Source: Defluviitaleaceae bacterium
GTDB lineage: Bacteria > Bacillota > Clostridia > Lachnospirales > WQUN01
Reading direction: 5' to 3'
NCBI GenBank assembly: GCA_009781725.1
Contig: WQVF01000010.1
Span: forward strand, 1 to 64,000
DNA: 64,000 bases
Part shown: positions 43,584-52,617 of the stretch, piece by piece
How the letters are laid out: the number at the start of each line of letters is the position of its first letter
Numbering within the stretch: the first letter of the stretch is position 1
The notes under the pieces: generated by a model
The model's database searches: none
What the model saw: only the letters and a program-made list of their open reading frames with translations
What the model was told of the DNA's origin: nothing
Position numbers and translations under genes: made by a program

Positions 43584-45530
43584 ATGGTTGACTACAAGAT
43601 GATAGAGGCAATGGCAAAGGGCGCGGTTAAAGGCGCATTGGAAAAACCTTCTGACGCAATAACTAAAATAACCAAGAACGCTCTTGCAAAGATAAAAGTG
43701 AATCTTGATACTGCATTTACCAGCTACTTGGATAAATCGTATACAAAGTATTCTACGATTAAGACATTGTTATATAAGGATGAATTTCGGAAACTACACG
43801 ATTTTTTTGTGGTACCAAATTTACGCAAAGGAAACAAAAAAAAGGAATCCATTATATCAGCTCAAAATTCAAGGAGCGTACGCAATTTTTTCCAAAGCAA
43901 CTTTGCTATAGTACAGGGTACTGGCGGTGCAGGTAAATCAATGCTAATGAAGCACTTGTTTTTAAGTGAACTTGAAACTCGTGATTTTATTCCAGTATTT
44001 TTTGAGTTAAAAGATATAAACAAGCAAGATGGTGACTATAATCTAATAGATGCGATTTTTGAAGGCATGAACATTCTGGTCGAGTCAACCTCAAAAGCCG
44101 CTGTTAAGTACGCCTTAGAACGAGGAATGTTCATGATTCTCTTAGATGGACTTGATGAAATAGATGGTAACAAGTCCAAGGATTTTACGGAAAAACTAAA
44201 TGATTTTTGTGATAAATACTCCCTCAATACTGTAATAATGTCATCTCGACCTATTGATGATTTTATTTCGTTTGAAAAATTTGCAGTGCTAGAGACTATG
44301 CCGTTAAACAAAACACAAGCTATTTCTCTAATTGAAAAGCTAGAGTATCAAGATGATTCTAAGCAGAAATTCATAACGGCACTAGATGGTGAACTATTTG
44401 AAAGACATGAAGAATTTGCATCTAATCCACTCCTTCTTACGATGATGTTTCTAACTTATGATGAGTTTGCAGAAATACCCGAAACACCTCACCTATTTTA
44501 CGAAAGAGCATTTGAAACCTTATTCATAAAACACGACCGTACTAAGGAAGGATATGTTCGTAAAATAGAAAGCGGGCTAAGGTCAGATTTGTTTAAGAAA
44601 GTGTTTTCAACTTTTTGCTGTATGACCTATTACAATAACGCATTGTCATTTTCTGAGGGCGAATTAATTAGCATACTCAGTAAAGTTAAGGAAGAAGTCG
44701 CTAAAGACGGTATCACGTTCGACATAGAAAAATATATTAGAGATTTAACTAACGTAGTATGTATGTTATACAAGGAAGGGTACACCTACAGCTTTACACA
44801 TAGGTCTTTTCAGGAATATTTCACAGCAGTATACCTGAAAGACCAAACAGATGATATCATGGAAAAACGAAGTCTAGCGATTATAAAAAAAAGTGTTTAT
44901 AAGGCAACACAGGATGAAACATTCCCGATGCTCTGTGGTATGGTAAAAAAAAAGTTTGAAAAAAACATCTTATTACCACTTTTAAATGAAATCGAAAATG
45001 ATTTTATCGGTAACGACCTTTACGATTTCTACTTTAAAAAAATGATTCCCTCGATTAGATTTATTAAAGGTACTGTGTTCCCCCTAACTCCAAATACACC
45101 GGATTATTTTGTCCTGAACACCTACTTGTATATTGAACCTCAACTAGATGATGGGGAGTCTGCCCATAACTCATCGAATGCCGTACGTCAACATCTAAAC
45201 GATGATGGAGCACAGAGATTCTATTACTTCGAAAACAATAATGTGTATTCAAGTCATGACCGTTTCGTTGGTGATGATGAAGTATTGTACAATTTAATGC
45301 GTGACACTTGGTTAGGACAGCTAATTCTAGCCATTTCCACAGCACGAGAAACCCTAACAAAAAAATACGCTGCCACAGCAGACCACGACGACTTTTTTTC
45401 CTTACAAAACAAAAAAAGGGGCTGTCACGTTAAGAATGCCGTTATTTCAAGGCTCGTCATCCCGGGATCCCATAACCATTGCCGAAAGACTAAGGGGATC
45501 CCGGGTCAAGCCCGGGACACGTCAGTCTAA
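43584..45530 (+). CDS. NACHT-domain NTPase, probable antiphage NLR-like protein
   Basis: The 648-residue protein starts at ATG 43584 with AAGGGGG 6 bases upstream. Residues 1 to about 105 form a helical N-terminal region. The NACHT core has Walker A GTGGAGKS (112-119) and Walker B LLDGLDEID, with D188, D191 and E192 in the NACHT-typical double-acid pattern. SSRP as sensor 1 and the winged-helix region ending FTHRSFQEYFTAVYL follow. The C-terminal part (about 440-605) is unassigned and would be the sensor. Bacterial NACHT proteins defend against phages. Residues from about 610 on (VKNAVISRLVIPG onward) are translated from repeat DNA, not from the original gene. It looks AT-richer than its neighbours. 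Confidence 0.88.
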   Translation: MVDYKMIEAMAKGAVKGALEKPSDAITKITKNALAKIKVNLDTAFTSYLDKSYTKYSTIKTLLYKDEFRKLHDFFVVPNLRKGNKKKESIISAQNSRSVRNFFQSNFAIVQGTGGAGKSMLMKHLFLSELETRDFIPVFFELKDINKQDGDYNLIDAIFEGMNILVESTSKAAVKYALERGMFMILLDGLDEIDGNKSKDFTEKLNDFCDKYSLNTVIMSSRPIDDFISFEKFAVLETMPLNKTQAISLIEKLEYQDDSKQKFITALDGELFERHEEFASNPLLLTMMFLTYDEFAEIPETPHLFYERAFETLFIKHDRTKEGYVRKIESGLRSDLFKKVFSTFCCMTYYNNALSFSEGELISILSKVKEEVAKDGITFDIEKYIRDLTNVVCMLYKEGYTYSFTHRSFQEYFTAVYLKDQTDDIMEKRSLAIIKKSVYKATQDETFPMLCGMVKKKFEKNILLPLLNEIENDFIGNDLYDFYFKKMIPSIRFIKGTVFPLTPNTPDYFVLNTYLYIEPQLDDGESAHNSSNAVRQHLNDDGAQRFYYFENNNVYSSHDRFVGDDEVLYNLMRDTWLGQLILAISTARETLTKKYAATADHDDFFSLQNKKRGCHVKNAVISRLVIPGSHNHCRKTKGIPGQARDTSV

Positions 45531-46349: not shown

Positions 46350-47561
46350 ATGGCAATCGTTAACATCGTCCAATATAATGGCGGGCCAGATGTTTTTGCT
46401 TGGAAATTTCCCAACGACCAGCTAAGCACTTGGACTCAGGTAATCGTCAACGAATCCCAAGAGGCAATTCTTCTTAAGGGCGGCCAGGTTGCCGACATCC
46501 TGGGCCCCGGGCGGCATACATTGGATACCGCCAATATCCCCTTGCTAAGCGCATTAATCCGGCTCCCCTTCGGTGGCCGTTCCCCTTTTACTGCAGAGGT
46601 CTGGTACATAAACAAAGTACATTCCATGAATATAAAATGGGGTACCCCAAGGCCTATTCAATTACAAGACCCTAAGTACAATATCTTCATCCCATTGCGC
46701 TCTTTCGGCCATTTTGGCATCCAGATTGCTGCGCCTAAGAAGTTTCTTGTAAAAATGGTAGGGGTTTTGCCTGTTTTCAACAAGGACAGCGTAGAGCAAT
46801 TCTTCCGCGGCCTTTATCTCACCAAGGTCAAGGACGCTATCGCAACATATCTGGTAAGAAAGGGCATCTCCGCCTTGGAGATAAACGCCTACCTACTAGA
46901 GCTATCCGACCACCTGCGGGACGCAATGGTACCTGTCTTTGACGAATATGGAATTAGGCTCATAAACTTCAATGTAAACAATATTAATGTGCCGGAAGAC
47001 GACCCCGGTGTAAGAAAACTTAAAGATGCACTGGCAAAACGTGCAGAAATGGATATCGTAGGCTTCAATTATGTACAGGAACGCTCCTTTAATACATTAG
47101 AAGGTGCGGCAACCAACCCCGGCCAGGCTCAAGTCGGTATTATGGGCGCAGGATTGGGCATGGCTATGGGAGCCGGCCTAGGGGGAGCCATGGGCAACCA
47201 TATGGGTAATATGGCCCAAAATCTCCAACTCGGTAACATGAAAAAATGCCCCCATTGCAACAATGATATGGACCAATCAGCTAGATTCTGCCCCGTTTGT
47301 GGCGGAGATTCCAACATGCCAAAGGCCTCATCAAAAACCTGCCCCAAATGCAATGCAGGTATTACAAACGAACGATCAAGATTCTGCCCGGAATGTGGCG
47401 TATCTTTGGTAAAAAGCTGCCCAGGATGTAGCGTGCCCATAGATGGCAACCCCAGATTTTGCCCAGAATGCGGCGTATCCATGACAAAAAGCTGCCCGGG
47501 ATGCAGTGCGCCTATAGAAGGCGACCACAGATTCTGTCCTGAATGTGGGAATAAAATGTGA
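46350..47561 (+). CDS. SPFH-domain protein with four C-terminal zinc ribbons (YdjI-like)
   Basis: The 403-residue protein has an SPFH/band-7-like core (residues about 20-235: VIVNESQEAILLKGG, GPGRHTLDTANIPLL, YGIRLINFNVNNINVPED). A Gly/Met-rich linker follows (GAGLGMAMGAGLGGAMGNHM). Four double-CxxC zinc ribbons complete it (CPHC..CPVCG, CPKC..CPECG, CPGC..CPECG, CPGC..CPECG). Bacillus YdjI and so-called virion core proteins share the core with one or two ribbons; four is long. AAGGTGG precedes the ATG. It heads an operon with two small membrane proteins. A membrane-scaffold or stress role is known only loosely for relatives. Confidence 0.88.
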   Translation: MAIVNIVQYNGGPDVFAWKFPNDQLSTWTQVIVNESQEAILLKGGQVADILGPGRHTLDTANIPLLSALIRLPFGGRSPFTAEVWYINKVHSMNIKWGTPRPIQLQDPKYNIFIPLRSFGHFGIQIAAPKKFLVKMVGVLPVFNKDSVEQFFRGLYLTKVKDAIATYLVRKGISALEINAYLLELSDHLRDAMVPVFDEYGIRLINFNVNNINVPEDDPGVRKLKDALAKRAEMDIVGFNYVQERSFNTLEGAATNPGQAQVGIMGAGLGMAMGAGLGGAMGNHMGNMAQNLQLGNMKKCPHCNNDMDQSARFCPVCGGDSNMPKASSKTCPKCNAGITNERSRFCPECGVSLVKSCPGCSVPIDGNPRFCPECGVSMTKSCPGCSAPIEGDHRFCPECGNKM

Positions 47562-48622: not shown

Positions 48623-48708
48623 TAAACAAGAAGGAACGAGTAGGGTGACGTAGCCCCTCCACTCGAATAACTGTGTAAATGCCCGCAACGGGCGGATAGG
48701 TGGTACAT

Positions 48709-49419
48709 ATGAAAAGGAAATTCGTTCTTATTAGCATTGCACTCATGTTTGTATTGGGCATTGCCGTAGTTTTTTATCCCAATATACGTACTCGCATAAA
48801 TGCTAGGGCTCAAGCCGAGATACTTGAGCAACACCAGGAAGAGGTAGCTGCTTTATACGATGAGTATATAGCGGGGCATTTTCTACGCGCTGATGAAGTC
48901 AATATGGGGCTAAGTTTGTTACCGGAAGATGGGACTCTTTATCTTGCCCAACATGCTATTTTGCCCCATGATTACAACGAAATCCTTAACGTAGGCGATG
49001 TTATGGCCCGGCTTTTGATTCCTGTTATTAATGTAGACCTTCCTATATTCCACACCACACACCCCGATGTATTGGAAATAGGAGTTGGACACATAGAAGG
49101 CACCTCTTTCCCCATTGGCGGGGAAAGTACTCACTCTGCCCTAACCGCACATGCCGGACTGCCTACGGCAAGGCTCTTTACAGACCTGGAGCAAGGTGTC
49201 GATATAGGGGATTACTTTTTTATTGATGTATTGGACCGACGTCTGGCCTATAGAGTTGACCAGATTACTGTGATTCTTCCTCACGAAATAGAACACCTGC
49301 GGATAATCCCAGGGGAAGACCTGGTGACTCTAATCACCTGCACTCCTTATACCGTCAACACACATAGGCTGTTGGTGCGTGGAAGTAGGGTAGAATTTGA
49401 AACACATCTATATGAATGA
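48709..49419 (+). CDS. Class C sortase
   Basis: Sortases cleave a sorting motif and attach surface or pilin proteins. The 236 residues start at ATG 48709 (AGGTGG upstream). An N-terminal transmembrane helix is followed by the sortase barrel with catalytic H148 (LTAHAGL), C211 (TLITCTPY) and R220 (THRLLVRG). The TLITCTPY...HRLLVRG pattern is that of class C. The usual C-terminal transmembrane helix of class C is absent here, as the protein ends shortly after the barrel. It is paralogous to the first domain of the next gene. Confidence 0.92.
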   Translation: MKRKFVLISIALMFVLGIAVVFYPNIRTRINARAQAEILEQHQEEVAALYDEYIAGHFLRADEVNMGLSLLPEDGTLYLAQHAILPHDYNEILNVGDVMARLLIPVINVDLPIFHTTHPDVLEIGVGHIEGTSFPIGGESTHSALTAHAGLPTARLFTDLEQGVDIGDYFFIDVLDRRLAYRVDQITVILPHEIEHLRIIPGEDLVTLITCTPYTVNTHRLLVRGSRVEFETHLYE

Positions 49420-49564: not shown

Positions 49565-49620
49565 GTATAGTCTTTCAGCGTGAGAACAAGCGAACTTATT
49601 CTCACGCTGAAAGACTATAC
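49565..49620. repeat. Perfect 22-bp inverted repeat
   Basis: Arms 49565-49586 and 49599-49620 are exact inverses with a 12-base loop. The right arm ends 22 bases before the GTG start of the tandem sortase. No T-tail follows. It may be a mobile palindrome or an mRNA hairpin controlling the downstream gene. Confidence 0.85.
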
Positions 49621-49642
49621 AACAACCGGAAGGGGGTGCGCA

Positions 49643-51583
49643 GTGAAAAAACATCTACCAACATTACTGGTTATATTTATGCTTTTGATTGGCTTTACTT
49701 TACTTTTTTATCCAGACTTTAGCACATGGTGGAACTCGCGCATCCAGGCCGGTGTAATTGGCCAATACCAGGAGGCCATAGAAGGCCTTACAGAGGAACA
49801 AATAGATGAGTTCTTCCGCCGAGCATATGAGGTCAATGCAGAACTAGCGGCCCTCCCCCCATCAGCACCCCTGCTCATTGCTCATGCAGCAACAGTCCCT
49901 GATGACTACATGGATATACTCCGTATCGGCCGTATAATGGGACGAGTAGAAATACCAAAAATCAGTGTTAACCTTCCCATATATCATACCACTCACTCTC
50001 ATGTGCTGGATTTAGGCGTAGGACATCTTGAGGGTACGGCGTTTCCAATAGGTGGATATGGCACCCATTCTGTTTTGACAGCCCATTCCGGACTAGCCAA
50101 CGCCAGGTTATTTACTGACCTAGAGGGAAATATAACATATGGCGACTATTTCTTTATAGAAGTACTAAACCGACGGCTGGCTTATCGAGTAGACCAAATA
50201 TTAATTGTTTGGCCACATGAGATTGAATCTTTACGTGTATCCCCTGGGGAAGATTTCGTAACATTAATCACCTGTACCCCCTACGCTGTAAACTCTCATA
50301 GGCTTTTGGTGCGAGGCTATAGAGTACCATTAGAAGTAGCTCCTCTGGCAGAGGAAATCGAAACCGAGAGTGTATCCAACAGAGTTGACTTCCGTGTATA
50401 TATTTTCCTTGGATTCTTTGCACTGTTCATGCTTGGTTTTATGATATATCAGATTATAACAAGTAACCGGAAAGCAAATCCTGTAGAAGAAATTCCACCG
50501 ATTCACCCATTCCCGTTCGAACCACTACCAATATACGAACCACTCAACCCTGCCGCTTCAAATAGCTCCATCCAACGTGACCCACGTGATACCCCAACAA
50601 GTCCATGGGATACCCCGAGCTCCTCCCCAAACCCACAACTTACCCCTGCAACGGGATCCCTGTTGGGACAATATATGGCAAAAGCCAAAACCGGAGGGTC
50701 GGCAACTAACAGTGCCATGGCCGCCCCCATGACAGCAAAACCCCTGTACCAGCGGCCTGCCCCAAAACGTGGAAGACTTGATATTATCGGCAAAATAAAA
50801 TCAAACCGTAATATCACCGCTGCATGTATTATTGCACTTTTACTTGTTGTAGTCGGAATAGGTATATTTATTTTTAGACCTCAGGTTGCAACGGCGGATT
50901 ATCAAAGTGCAATCGATAGATTTGTGACAAGAATCGAAGATTATCGAGCCGTGCACAACGAACGGGTTGTGGCTGATATGATGGATCGTTGGCAAGACAG
51001 CGGTGAGCTTGAGATTATAGATATGGATGATTTTGCCGCCGACCCTTTTGCAGGGCTTATGCATGAGGTACAAGAGTATAATCGGCGCATAAGCAACGGG
51101 AACCAGCCCTCTCTACCGGATCCATTCTCGTATAGCCAATCAGGTTTTAGTTTAGAGCAATTTGGCTTCGATGAAGAAATGATTGGGTATATAGCTATCC
51201 CAAGATTAGACACTCAGCTACCTATTTTCTTGGGTGCCAGCCGCGAAAACCTACGACGAGGTCTAGCACATTTAACTGGAACATCCCTCCCAGTAGGGGG
51301 AACAAGCACTAATGCCGTTATTGCAGGACACATGACAGCCGGTCGCAACAGTTTACTTGCAGGCATCGAATCGTTGGAAATTGGAGATGAATTGCGAATA
51401 ACCAATTTCTATGATACTCTGATTTATAAGGTTACAGACATACAGCTGGTATATCCCCATCAAACGCAAGACCTGATGGTACAAAGTGGCAATGACATAA
51501 TAACCTTGTTAGCATACCGTGAAGGTGATGTCGAGCGGTATATGATTGTGGCACAGCGTGCAAACTATAGCGAACGACATTGA
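49643..51583 (+). CDS. Tandem sortase: active class C domain plus sortase-like domain lacking catalytic Cys
   Basis: The 646-residue product starts at GTG 49643 (AAGGGGG upstream). Domain 1 (about 1-235) is a class C sortase with TAHSGL, C211 in TLITCTPY and SHRLLVRG. A transmembrane helix follows at about 252-273, then a Pro/Ser/Ala linker (about 285-385) and a second transmembrane helix (about 393-415). Domain 2 (about 420-646) is another sortase fold. It keeps H563 (IAGHMTAG) and R632, but Y625 stands where the Cys should be (TLLAYREG). The second domain therefore cannot perform normal transpeptidation and may bind substrate. The last codons lie in a palindromic repeat starting 51566. Confidence 0.88.
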   Translation: MKKHLPTLLVIFMLLIGFTLLFYPDFSTWWNSRIQAGVIGQYQEAIEGLTEEQIDEFFRRAYEVNAELAALPPSAPLLIAHAATVPDDYMDILRIGRIMGRVEIPKISVNLPIYHTTHSHVLDLGVGHLEGTAFPIGGYGTHSVLTAHSGLANARLFTDLEGNITYGDYFFIEVLNRRLAYRVDQILIVWPHEIESLRVSPGEDFVTLITCTPYAVNSHRLLVRGYRVPLEVAPLAEEIETESVSNRVDFRVYIFLGFFALFMLGFMIYQIITSNRKANPVEEIPPIHPFPFEPLPIYEPLNPAASNSSIQRDPRDTPTSPWDTPSSSPNPQLTPATGSLLGQYMAKAKTGGSATNSAMAAPMTAKPLYQRPAPKRGRLDIIGKIKSNRNITAACIIALLLVVVGIGIFIFRPQVATADYQSAIDRFVTRIEDYRAVHNERVVADMMDRWQDSGELEIIDMDDFAADPFAGLMHEVQEYNRRISNGNQPSLPDPFSYSQSGFSLEQFGFDEEMIGYIAIPRLDTQLPIFLGASRENLRRGLAHLTGTSLPVGGTSTNAVIAGHMTAGRNSLLAGIESLEIGDELRITNFYDTLIYKVTDIQLVYPHQTQDLMVQSGNDIITLLAYREGDVERYMIVAQRANYSERH

Positions 51584-51675: not shown

Positions 51676-51782
51676 TATATAGTGATTCTCCTTGAAAACA
51701 AGGTTGCTTGTTTTTCAAGGGGAACGACTATAATGTCATAAGAATGACTTCTTACTGTTAAGAAACTGTAAGGCCTACCATC

Positions 51783-51864: not shown

Positions 51865-52617
51865 ATGCTCACCAAACCTAAGGATAGAAAATGGATTTGT
51901 AGATTGCTCATATTTATGGCATTAATCGTGGCTGCTGCAGGCGGAAGGCCGTTTTTGGCAATGGCGTCAGAGCAGAACTACGAGCAATACTATGAACACT
52001 ACTATGAAACCCACCGCTTCGACAGGGTGTTTGTGGTATTCAATCCAGATCCAGGGGCGTTCCCGCCGGAAGAAACCGCAGACGGTGTAAGGCTTCCATT
52101 TAGGGGCGAAACTTTAACGGATTTCCCGCCTAATCCCACCCGAGCCGGATATACATTTGACGGCTGGCGGTTACCTGGCGGCGAAGCTCTAACCGCAGAC
52201 TACTTGGTGGTTAATAATGAAATAACCCTCCATGCAATATGGATACCATATGGCACCGCCCCTCAAAACAGTCCGGCACCAGGGACATCCCCCTCACCCT
52301 CCCCTGAACCGGGAGCTTCACCTTCCCCATCTCCTGCACCGGGAACTTCACCCTCTCCATCTCCTACCCCAGGAGGTGCTTCTCCCACCCCTTATAAAGG
52401 TCAAGATGGATACCGTCCCAACCCAGGCACAAACCCCTTGGCAATAAGTTTCTTAATTTTTATTGCGGTAATAGGATTGGGAATAGCGGCCTATAACATC
52501 ATTAAGCTGGCTGCGAAATATGCGGAAGAAAAGGGGCAGTATATAGCAGATGCAACAAGGTATGAAAGAGAAGCGAGGTTGACAGACCTCCTTGAGGAAG
52601 ATAACGATACAATATAA
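51865..52617 (+). CDS. Surface protein with InlB-type repeat, Pro-rich stalk and NPGTN motif
   Basis: The 250-residue protein has an N-terminal signal or anchor helix (about 10-30). One Listeria-Bacteroides (InlB B-type) repeat follows: FPPNPTRAGYTFDGW and LHAIWIPYG. A stalk of SPSP-x-PG repeats (about 133-172) leads to NPGTN, then a transmembrane helix (about 190-212). A charged cytoplasmic tail of about 40 residues ends the protein. NPGTN resembles NPQTN/NPxTG sorting signals and stands just before the helix, next to two sortase genes. The tail is much longer than in classical sortase substrates, so anchoring is an inference. Confidence 0.8.
   Translation: MLTKPKDRKWICRLLIFMALIVAAAGGRPFLAMASEQNYEQYYEHYYETHRFDRVFVVFNPDPGAFPPEETADGVRLPFRGETLTDFPPNPTRAGYTFDGWRLPGGEALTADYLVVNNEITLHAIWIPYGTAPQNSPAPGTSPSPSPEPGASPSPSPAPGTSPSPSPTPGGASPTPYKGQDGYRPNPGTNPLAISFLIFIAVIGLGIAAYNIIKLAAKYAEEKGQYIADATRYEREARLTDLLEEDNDTI

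Follow-up and report, generated by a model that had tools for sequence, protein, structure and literature searches.

The window, a 64,000-nucleotide stretch of contig WQVF01000010.1 from a Defluviitaleaceae bacterium (genome G000), carries a sortase cassette of three genes on the forward strand. The first encodes a single class C sortase with Cys, His, and Arg present (48700..49419; NCBIfam class_C_sortase 231 bits against a cut-off of 160), the second a 646-aa fusion of an active class C sortase and a pseudo-sortase (49643..51583), and the third a small secreted surface protein (51865..52617). Orthologous fusions were found in two sister species of the same genus, G032 and G033 (matching WRAN01000014 and WQVY01000004, Defluviitaleaceae MAGs), which we take to come from the set of higher-termite gut genomes of PMC7024585, given the naming style of isolates Lab288 and Emb289. 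All three genomes are MAGs. The order of the three genes is the same in all three species and the flanks differ; no pilin gene is present in the cassette. The gene at 46350-47561, just upstream of the window's cassette, encodes a Band 7/SPFH protein whose C-terminal part has several zinc ribbons; two genes for small proteins come next, and the genes at this place in the other two species are different. Farther upstream, the product of 43584-45527 shows weak matches to a NACHT-type NTPase domain and, at its C-terminus, to SNaCT14; it is possibly a defence protein.

A 54-bp palindrome (TATAGT...ACTATA, 49566..49619; RNA fold z -8.7) precedes the fusion gene, and a second one of about 54 bp lies at 51678-51732. 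They belong to a dispersed family that occurs at many places in G000 and is not specific to the cassette, and the upstream copy is probably outside the mechanism discussed below. As a loose pattern for this family also gave 30 control matches, only visibly palindromic copies were counted. Some of them abut with a shared terminal TA, so the family may consist of small insertion elements that target TA.

The fusion ORF is intact. It starts with GTG at 49643 behind a good ribosome-binding site (AAGGGGGT, 49630..49637, forward strand), and this start agrees with both orthologues. Each domain alone scores above the Pfam Sortase cut-off (74.7 bits for domain 1 and 63.0 bits for domain 2), and NCBIfam likewise detects two sortase domains. 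TM1 (residues 5-23; 49655..49711) is followed by the core of domain 1 (residues 97-230; 49931..50332), which carries the class C catalytic residues His148 (50084..50086), Cys211 (50273..50275), and Arg220 (50300..50302), and then by a C-terminal transmembrane (TM) helix of class C type, TM2 (residues 254-272; 50402..50458). The Pro-rich linker of about 115 residues (277-390; 50471..50812) has a pLDDT below 50 over most of its length in the full-length model and is predicted to be disordered. The initial annotation had placed two TM helices and a Pro-rich linker between the domains. TM2 and TM3 (residues 393-411; 50819..50875) do flank the linker; hydropathy gives three TM helices in all, and their order predicts a cytosolic linker. 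The N-terminus and the linker would thus lie inside and both sortase domains outside. The full-length model (pTM 0.42) does not fix how the domains pack. We found no DPX lid motif before the core of domain 1 or in the single cassette sortase in any of the three cassettes. DPX occurs in 39 of 95 first-type sortases, so many relatives of domain 1 also go without it.

Domain 2 (core residues 509-641; 51167..51565) has His563 (51329..51331) and Arg632 (51536..51538), but its strand beta-7 reads ITLLAYREG, with Tyr625 (51515..51517) where the catalytic Cys is expected, and the translation has no Cys anywhere in the extracellular part of the domain. The earlier description of the protein as an active sortase joined to a pseudo-sortase, with the class C triad in domain 1 and with His563, Arg632, and a Cys-less TLLAYREG in domain 2, therefore stands, including its residue numbers. 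With the invariant TL of strand beta-7 as the reference point, Tyr625 occupies the Cys place. Compared with active relatives, the beta7-beta8 loop lacks two residues, and in an alternative alignment Tyr625 pairs with the Tyr of the usual CHPY. The event may have been a Cys-to-Tyr change or a deletion of Cys-His-Pro; the Cys is absent in either case. Ahead of the core, domain 2 has a DP(F/W/Y) lid motif (DPF, residues 493-495; 51119..51127). Hydropathy detected no C-terminal TM helix in domain 2, and an active second-type relative (L059) likewise has none.

Structure prediction and superposition, proposed in the initial annotation as a check on domain 2, returned a class C fold. The AlphaFold2 model of residues 391-646, built with 28 relatives, has a pLDDT of 86.2 and a pTM of 0.81. 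Foldseek and VIA-align comparisons group it with class C pilin sortases, namely GBS SrtC1 (4g1j; Z 25.0, rmsd 2.1 over 186 residues) and Clostridium perfringens SrtC (6ixz; Z 24.9), whereas class A and E sortases reach only about Z 15. A sequence profile of the Cys-less domains also ranks class C entries first, and domain 2 alone scores 134.6 bits with the curated NCBIfam class C model, below its cut-off of 160. As modelled, domain 2 is a class C sortase fold.

A search for the same fusion in other genomes, also suggested at the outset, recovered it in G032 and G033 with the Cys loss conserved. The G032 orthologue is 67% identical in the domain 1 half and 48% in the domain 2 half, and the G033 orthologue is 45% identical over the whole protein; their domain 2 motifs are TLLAY and TLLGY, both with Tyr at the Cys place, and in G033 the His is also changed, to Arg. 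The four stand-alone sortases of the genus that are nearest to domain 2 read TLVTT (three) or TLLTP (one), and the TLLTP protein has Glu in place of His. Cys is thus absent from all seven domain-2-type sortases of the genus (three fusions and four stand-alone proteins) and kept in the other 138 domains of a 145-domain survey tree. Searches at order, class, and phylum level sampled about 400 genomes each, with inspection limited to fetched loci; in the further second-type domains from the class and phylum searches, Cys is kept wherever the motif is readable. At L056:1078-8705 (G033:C21), the TLLTP sortase gene lies 12 bp after a gene for a 2298-aa LPLTGG adhesin with a beta-helix region, and the two are possible dedicated partners.

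The Cys-less domains have other residues in common. DPF, TL, and Arg are kept in seven of seven and the catalytic His in five, and all seven share Y434 and R441 (50942..50965), which lie in an N-terminal helix, plus a few other positions; among Cys-bearing relatives, Y434 occurs in 7% and R441 in 0%. The lid Asp of GBS SrtC2 is salt-bridged to the catalytic Arg, and DPX sits at the LPXT peptide site as a pseudo-substrate (PMC3493515). Because of this bridge and the retention of DPF and Arg in all seven, the Cys-less domains appear to have retained the latch (lid and Arg) and not the catalytic pair. Between species, dN of the cores is 0.33-0.43 for domain 2 and 0.13-0.34 for domain 1, and it is 0.69-1.17 for the linker; core identity between the window and G032 is 59% for domain 2 and 83% for domain 1. 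With synonymous sites close to saturated, dN/dS is no more than indicative; for domain 2, the single value that could be computed is about 0.15.

The 145-domain tree puts domain 2 in a clade (99*, 50 rows) that includes the second genes of sortase pairs. These pairs are adjacent or overlapping, for example in Christensenella intestinihominis (L055), in termite Oscillospiraceae (L059, L103), and at L054, L070, L072, and L101. In many Clostridia, such pairs are part of pilus operons and both sortases are active. The gene directly 5' of the pairs is pilin-like (LPxTGG, about 530 aa), and at several loci a large gene (about 1700 aa) precedes that one. Domain 1 is of the first-gene type with a C-terminal TM helix and domain 2 belongs to the second-gene clade; the fusion therefore unites a two-sortase pilus pair that already existed. 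In the PI-1 pilus of GBS, either sortase polymerises the backbone, and each is required for its own minor pilin (PMC3166054).

Fusions in which both domains have Cys also exist. One is encoded in the window's own genome behind an LPMTG pilin (G000:C7, L010), another at G032:C17, and a G033 copy (G033:C24) is cut by the contig end; further examples are L109 (470 aa) and L098 (607 aa; Ca. Coprousia avicola). Like the Cys-less fusion, those at G000:C7, G032:C17, L109, and L098 join a first-type and a second-type sortase in one chain, and the two that belong to the genus are likewise followed by an NPxT(N/S)P protein. They differ in having both Cys, and the copies of the genus, though small in number, carry DPF in domain 1 alone, as well as a long insert before domain 2. 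The initial annotation knew of no described system with this layout. We too found no paper on pseudo-sortases or natural tandem sortases in a search that covered few subscription journals, but the two-domain layout alone is not unique, since this genome and other bacteria have both-active fusions. A 56-row tree places the seven Cys-less rows together with support of 52/0, which does not settle one versus two Cys losses, and the hypothesis that both fusion types go back to one event is not rejected (p-AU 0.255). In a 20-row full-length alignment, every single-domain row aligned to domain 1, and no model was built from it.

The third gene of the cassette, at the same place in G032 and G033, encodes a List_Bact repeat, a Pro-rich stalk, an NPGTNP sorting-signal-like motif (52420..52437, forward strand), a TM helix, and an R..RE.R tail. 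In the genus, each of the six fusions, whichever its type, has an NPxT(N/S)P protein directly after it, with gaps of -8 to 281 bp; since it also follows the both-Cys type, the Cys-less domain is not required for this linkage. The signal, NPxT[NSDG]P with a TM helix and a tail of about 30 residues with invariant R..RE, was found in 25 proteins of the three genomes (9, 9, and 7). In G000 they include the cassette protein and proteins on C6, C7, C8, C17, C32, and C35 (L045-L050, L010). Outside the genus, no convincing match was found among 392 genomes of the order, with one marginal hit at E 9e-4 in G035. The signal and the Cys-less domains have the same phyletic range.

NPQTN is the class B sortase signal, and the cassette protein resembles class B substrates in its NPQTN-like core, TM helix, and positive residues, but it differs from them in the invariant extra Pro (NPxTNP), in the R..RE.R tail of about 30 residues, and in its linkage to class C fusions. 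Adjacent SrtB-like genes are present at G000:C12 (129.7 and 138.5 bits, under the NCBIfam cut-off of 153.75), as are adjacent Sortase-family pairs at G032:C5 and G033:C16. Given the likeness to a class B signal, the sortase that cuts the NPxTNP signal may be one of the cassette or one of the SrtB-like pair.

With confidence a little above even, we favour the reading that a pilus-type class C pair was fused and that domain 2 has been kept as a non-catalytic helper of the active domain 1. In this scenario, two neighbouring pilus-type sortases of class C would have fused end to end in one termite-gut genus, and the downstream domain of one fusion copy would then have lost its catalytic Cys and stayed as a pseudo-enzyme. 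Both domains would face outward, tethered by the flexible cytosolic linker. Domain 1 would perform transpeptidation, and domain 2, with its DPF lid latched in cis onto its Arg, would act as a docking, positioning, or gating module that aids it. The NPxTNP protein of the cassette would be the first candidate partner, or else a pilin. A helper role is suggested because the catalytic residue is gone and the shape is conserved, also in the two sister species; the constraint on the domain 2 core relative to the linker, the shared lid, Arg, and lineage-specific motif, the descent from pilus pairs, and the constant cassette order with its NPxTNP protein fit it as well. Counting against it are the faster change of domain 2 than of domain 1, the variation of the residue at the Cys place (Tyr, Thr, Pro), the loss of the His in two of the seven domains, the small number of species (three, all MAGs), and the both-Cys fusions, which an NPxTNP protein follows too. 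The nearest precedent, in logic only, may be SipA, a dead signal peptidase that is essential for Streptococcus pyogenes pili built by a lidless class B sortase and for which a recognition or scaffold role has been proposed (PMC4049620). A DPF in domain 2 beside a lidless domain 1 fits substrate presentation and capping alike and proves neither. It is also conceivable, if unlikely, that the genus has a display route of its own, in which NPxTNP proteins with the cytosolic RExR tail are handled by tandem sortases with one domain as non-catalytic reader or gate, possibly with the lid acting in trans.

Several other readings explain parts of these data. Domain 2 could be a decaying relic that drifts without a function of its own because the second activity became dispensable after fusion. 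Loss of the Cys, loss of the His in G033, change faster than in domain 1, and a residue at the Cys place that is not the same in fused and stand-alone forms would all be expected of a relic. We nevertheless think decay rather improbable: the frames are open and the cores half-conserved in three species, dN lies well below that of the linker, DPF, TL, and Arg persist in all seven domains along with new shared residues, and four stand-alone Cys-less sortases are retained as whole genes, one of them behind the LPLTGG adhesin. The lid pattern permits another reading, in which the DPF of domain 2 gates the lidless domain 1, or domain 2 covers its groove, as an autoinhibitory regulator and not a substrate presenter. 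The lid is a pseudo-substrate and a GBS SrtC is more active once the N-terminal region with the lid is removed (PMC3493515), in all three cassettes DPX is missing from domain 1 and from the single sortase while all Cys-less domains have DPF, and the both-active fusions of the genus show the reverse arrangement. Retention of Arg632 is nevertheless what a lid latched in cis would require, many first-type sortases without DPX have no such partner, and the stand-alone Cys-less sortases keep DPF too, which makes gating in trans more doubtful than decay.

That domain 2 is still an enzyme with Tyr or Thr as nucleophile is very improbable; in six of seven domains the residue at the Cys place has a hydroxyl side chain, but it varies (Tyr, Thr, Pro), the catalytic His is gone in two, and the alignment shows no other conserved Cys. 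We give practically no weight to a strain mutation, an assembly error, or a domain that is not a sortase. All three genomes being MAGs speaks for an artefact, yet the same result comes from three genomes that were binned separately and whose proteins are 45-58% identical over their whole length. A strain mutation or assembly error was rejected since the G032 and G033 fusions also have Tyr, and a non-sortase fold was rejected on the class C match of the model (Z 25.0).

Among known systems, domain 2 resembles the class C pilin sortases SrtC1 and SrtC2 of GBS PI-1 in its fold, N-terminal helices, DPF lid, and Arg, and domain 1 resembles them in its triad and C-terminal TM helix; the ancestral pairs, too, lie behind a pilin gene. 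Unlike in the GBS pairs, a cytosolic linker connects the two domains within a single polypeptide, domain 2 is without a Cys and domain 1 without a DPX motif, and the cassette has no pilin gene. The SipA/LepA helper is comparable as a dead processing-enzyme fold that is tied to sortase-built surface structures and retains its binding groove, with the scaffold or recognition role being a proposal there as well; it differs in being a separate protein with a signal peptidase fold that works with a class B sortase, whereas domain 2 has a sortase fold (PMC4049620). A literature search, with most subscription journals outside its coverage, returned no description of a pseudo-sortase, an inactive sortase, or a natural tandem sortase. 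The class C fold and chemistry are known; what is new is the fusion with a conserved pseudo-enzyme domain. Pseudoenzymes are known in many enzyme families. A sortase with one inactive and one active domain is a natural tool to separate substrate recognition from catalysis in the assembly of pili and surface proteins, and it is also useful for working out the role of the class C lid; unfused gene pairs and both-active fusions form a ready comparison series. If the genus does have its own display route, the fused and stand-alone pseudo-sortases would be specificity factors of an undescribed kind.

Sortase domains of the genus also occur in another type of fusion. L012:4265-5278 (G000:C34) and L065:5497-6597 (G033:C89) encode an HTH_3 (XRE-type) domain, a TM helix, and a class C sortase domain in one protein. 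It would be unusual for a sortase to be linked to a membrane-bound regulator. In the G033 copy (L065), the catalytic His is Tyr and the Cys is kept.
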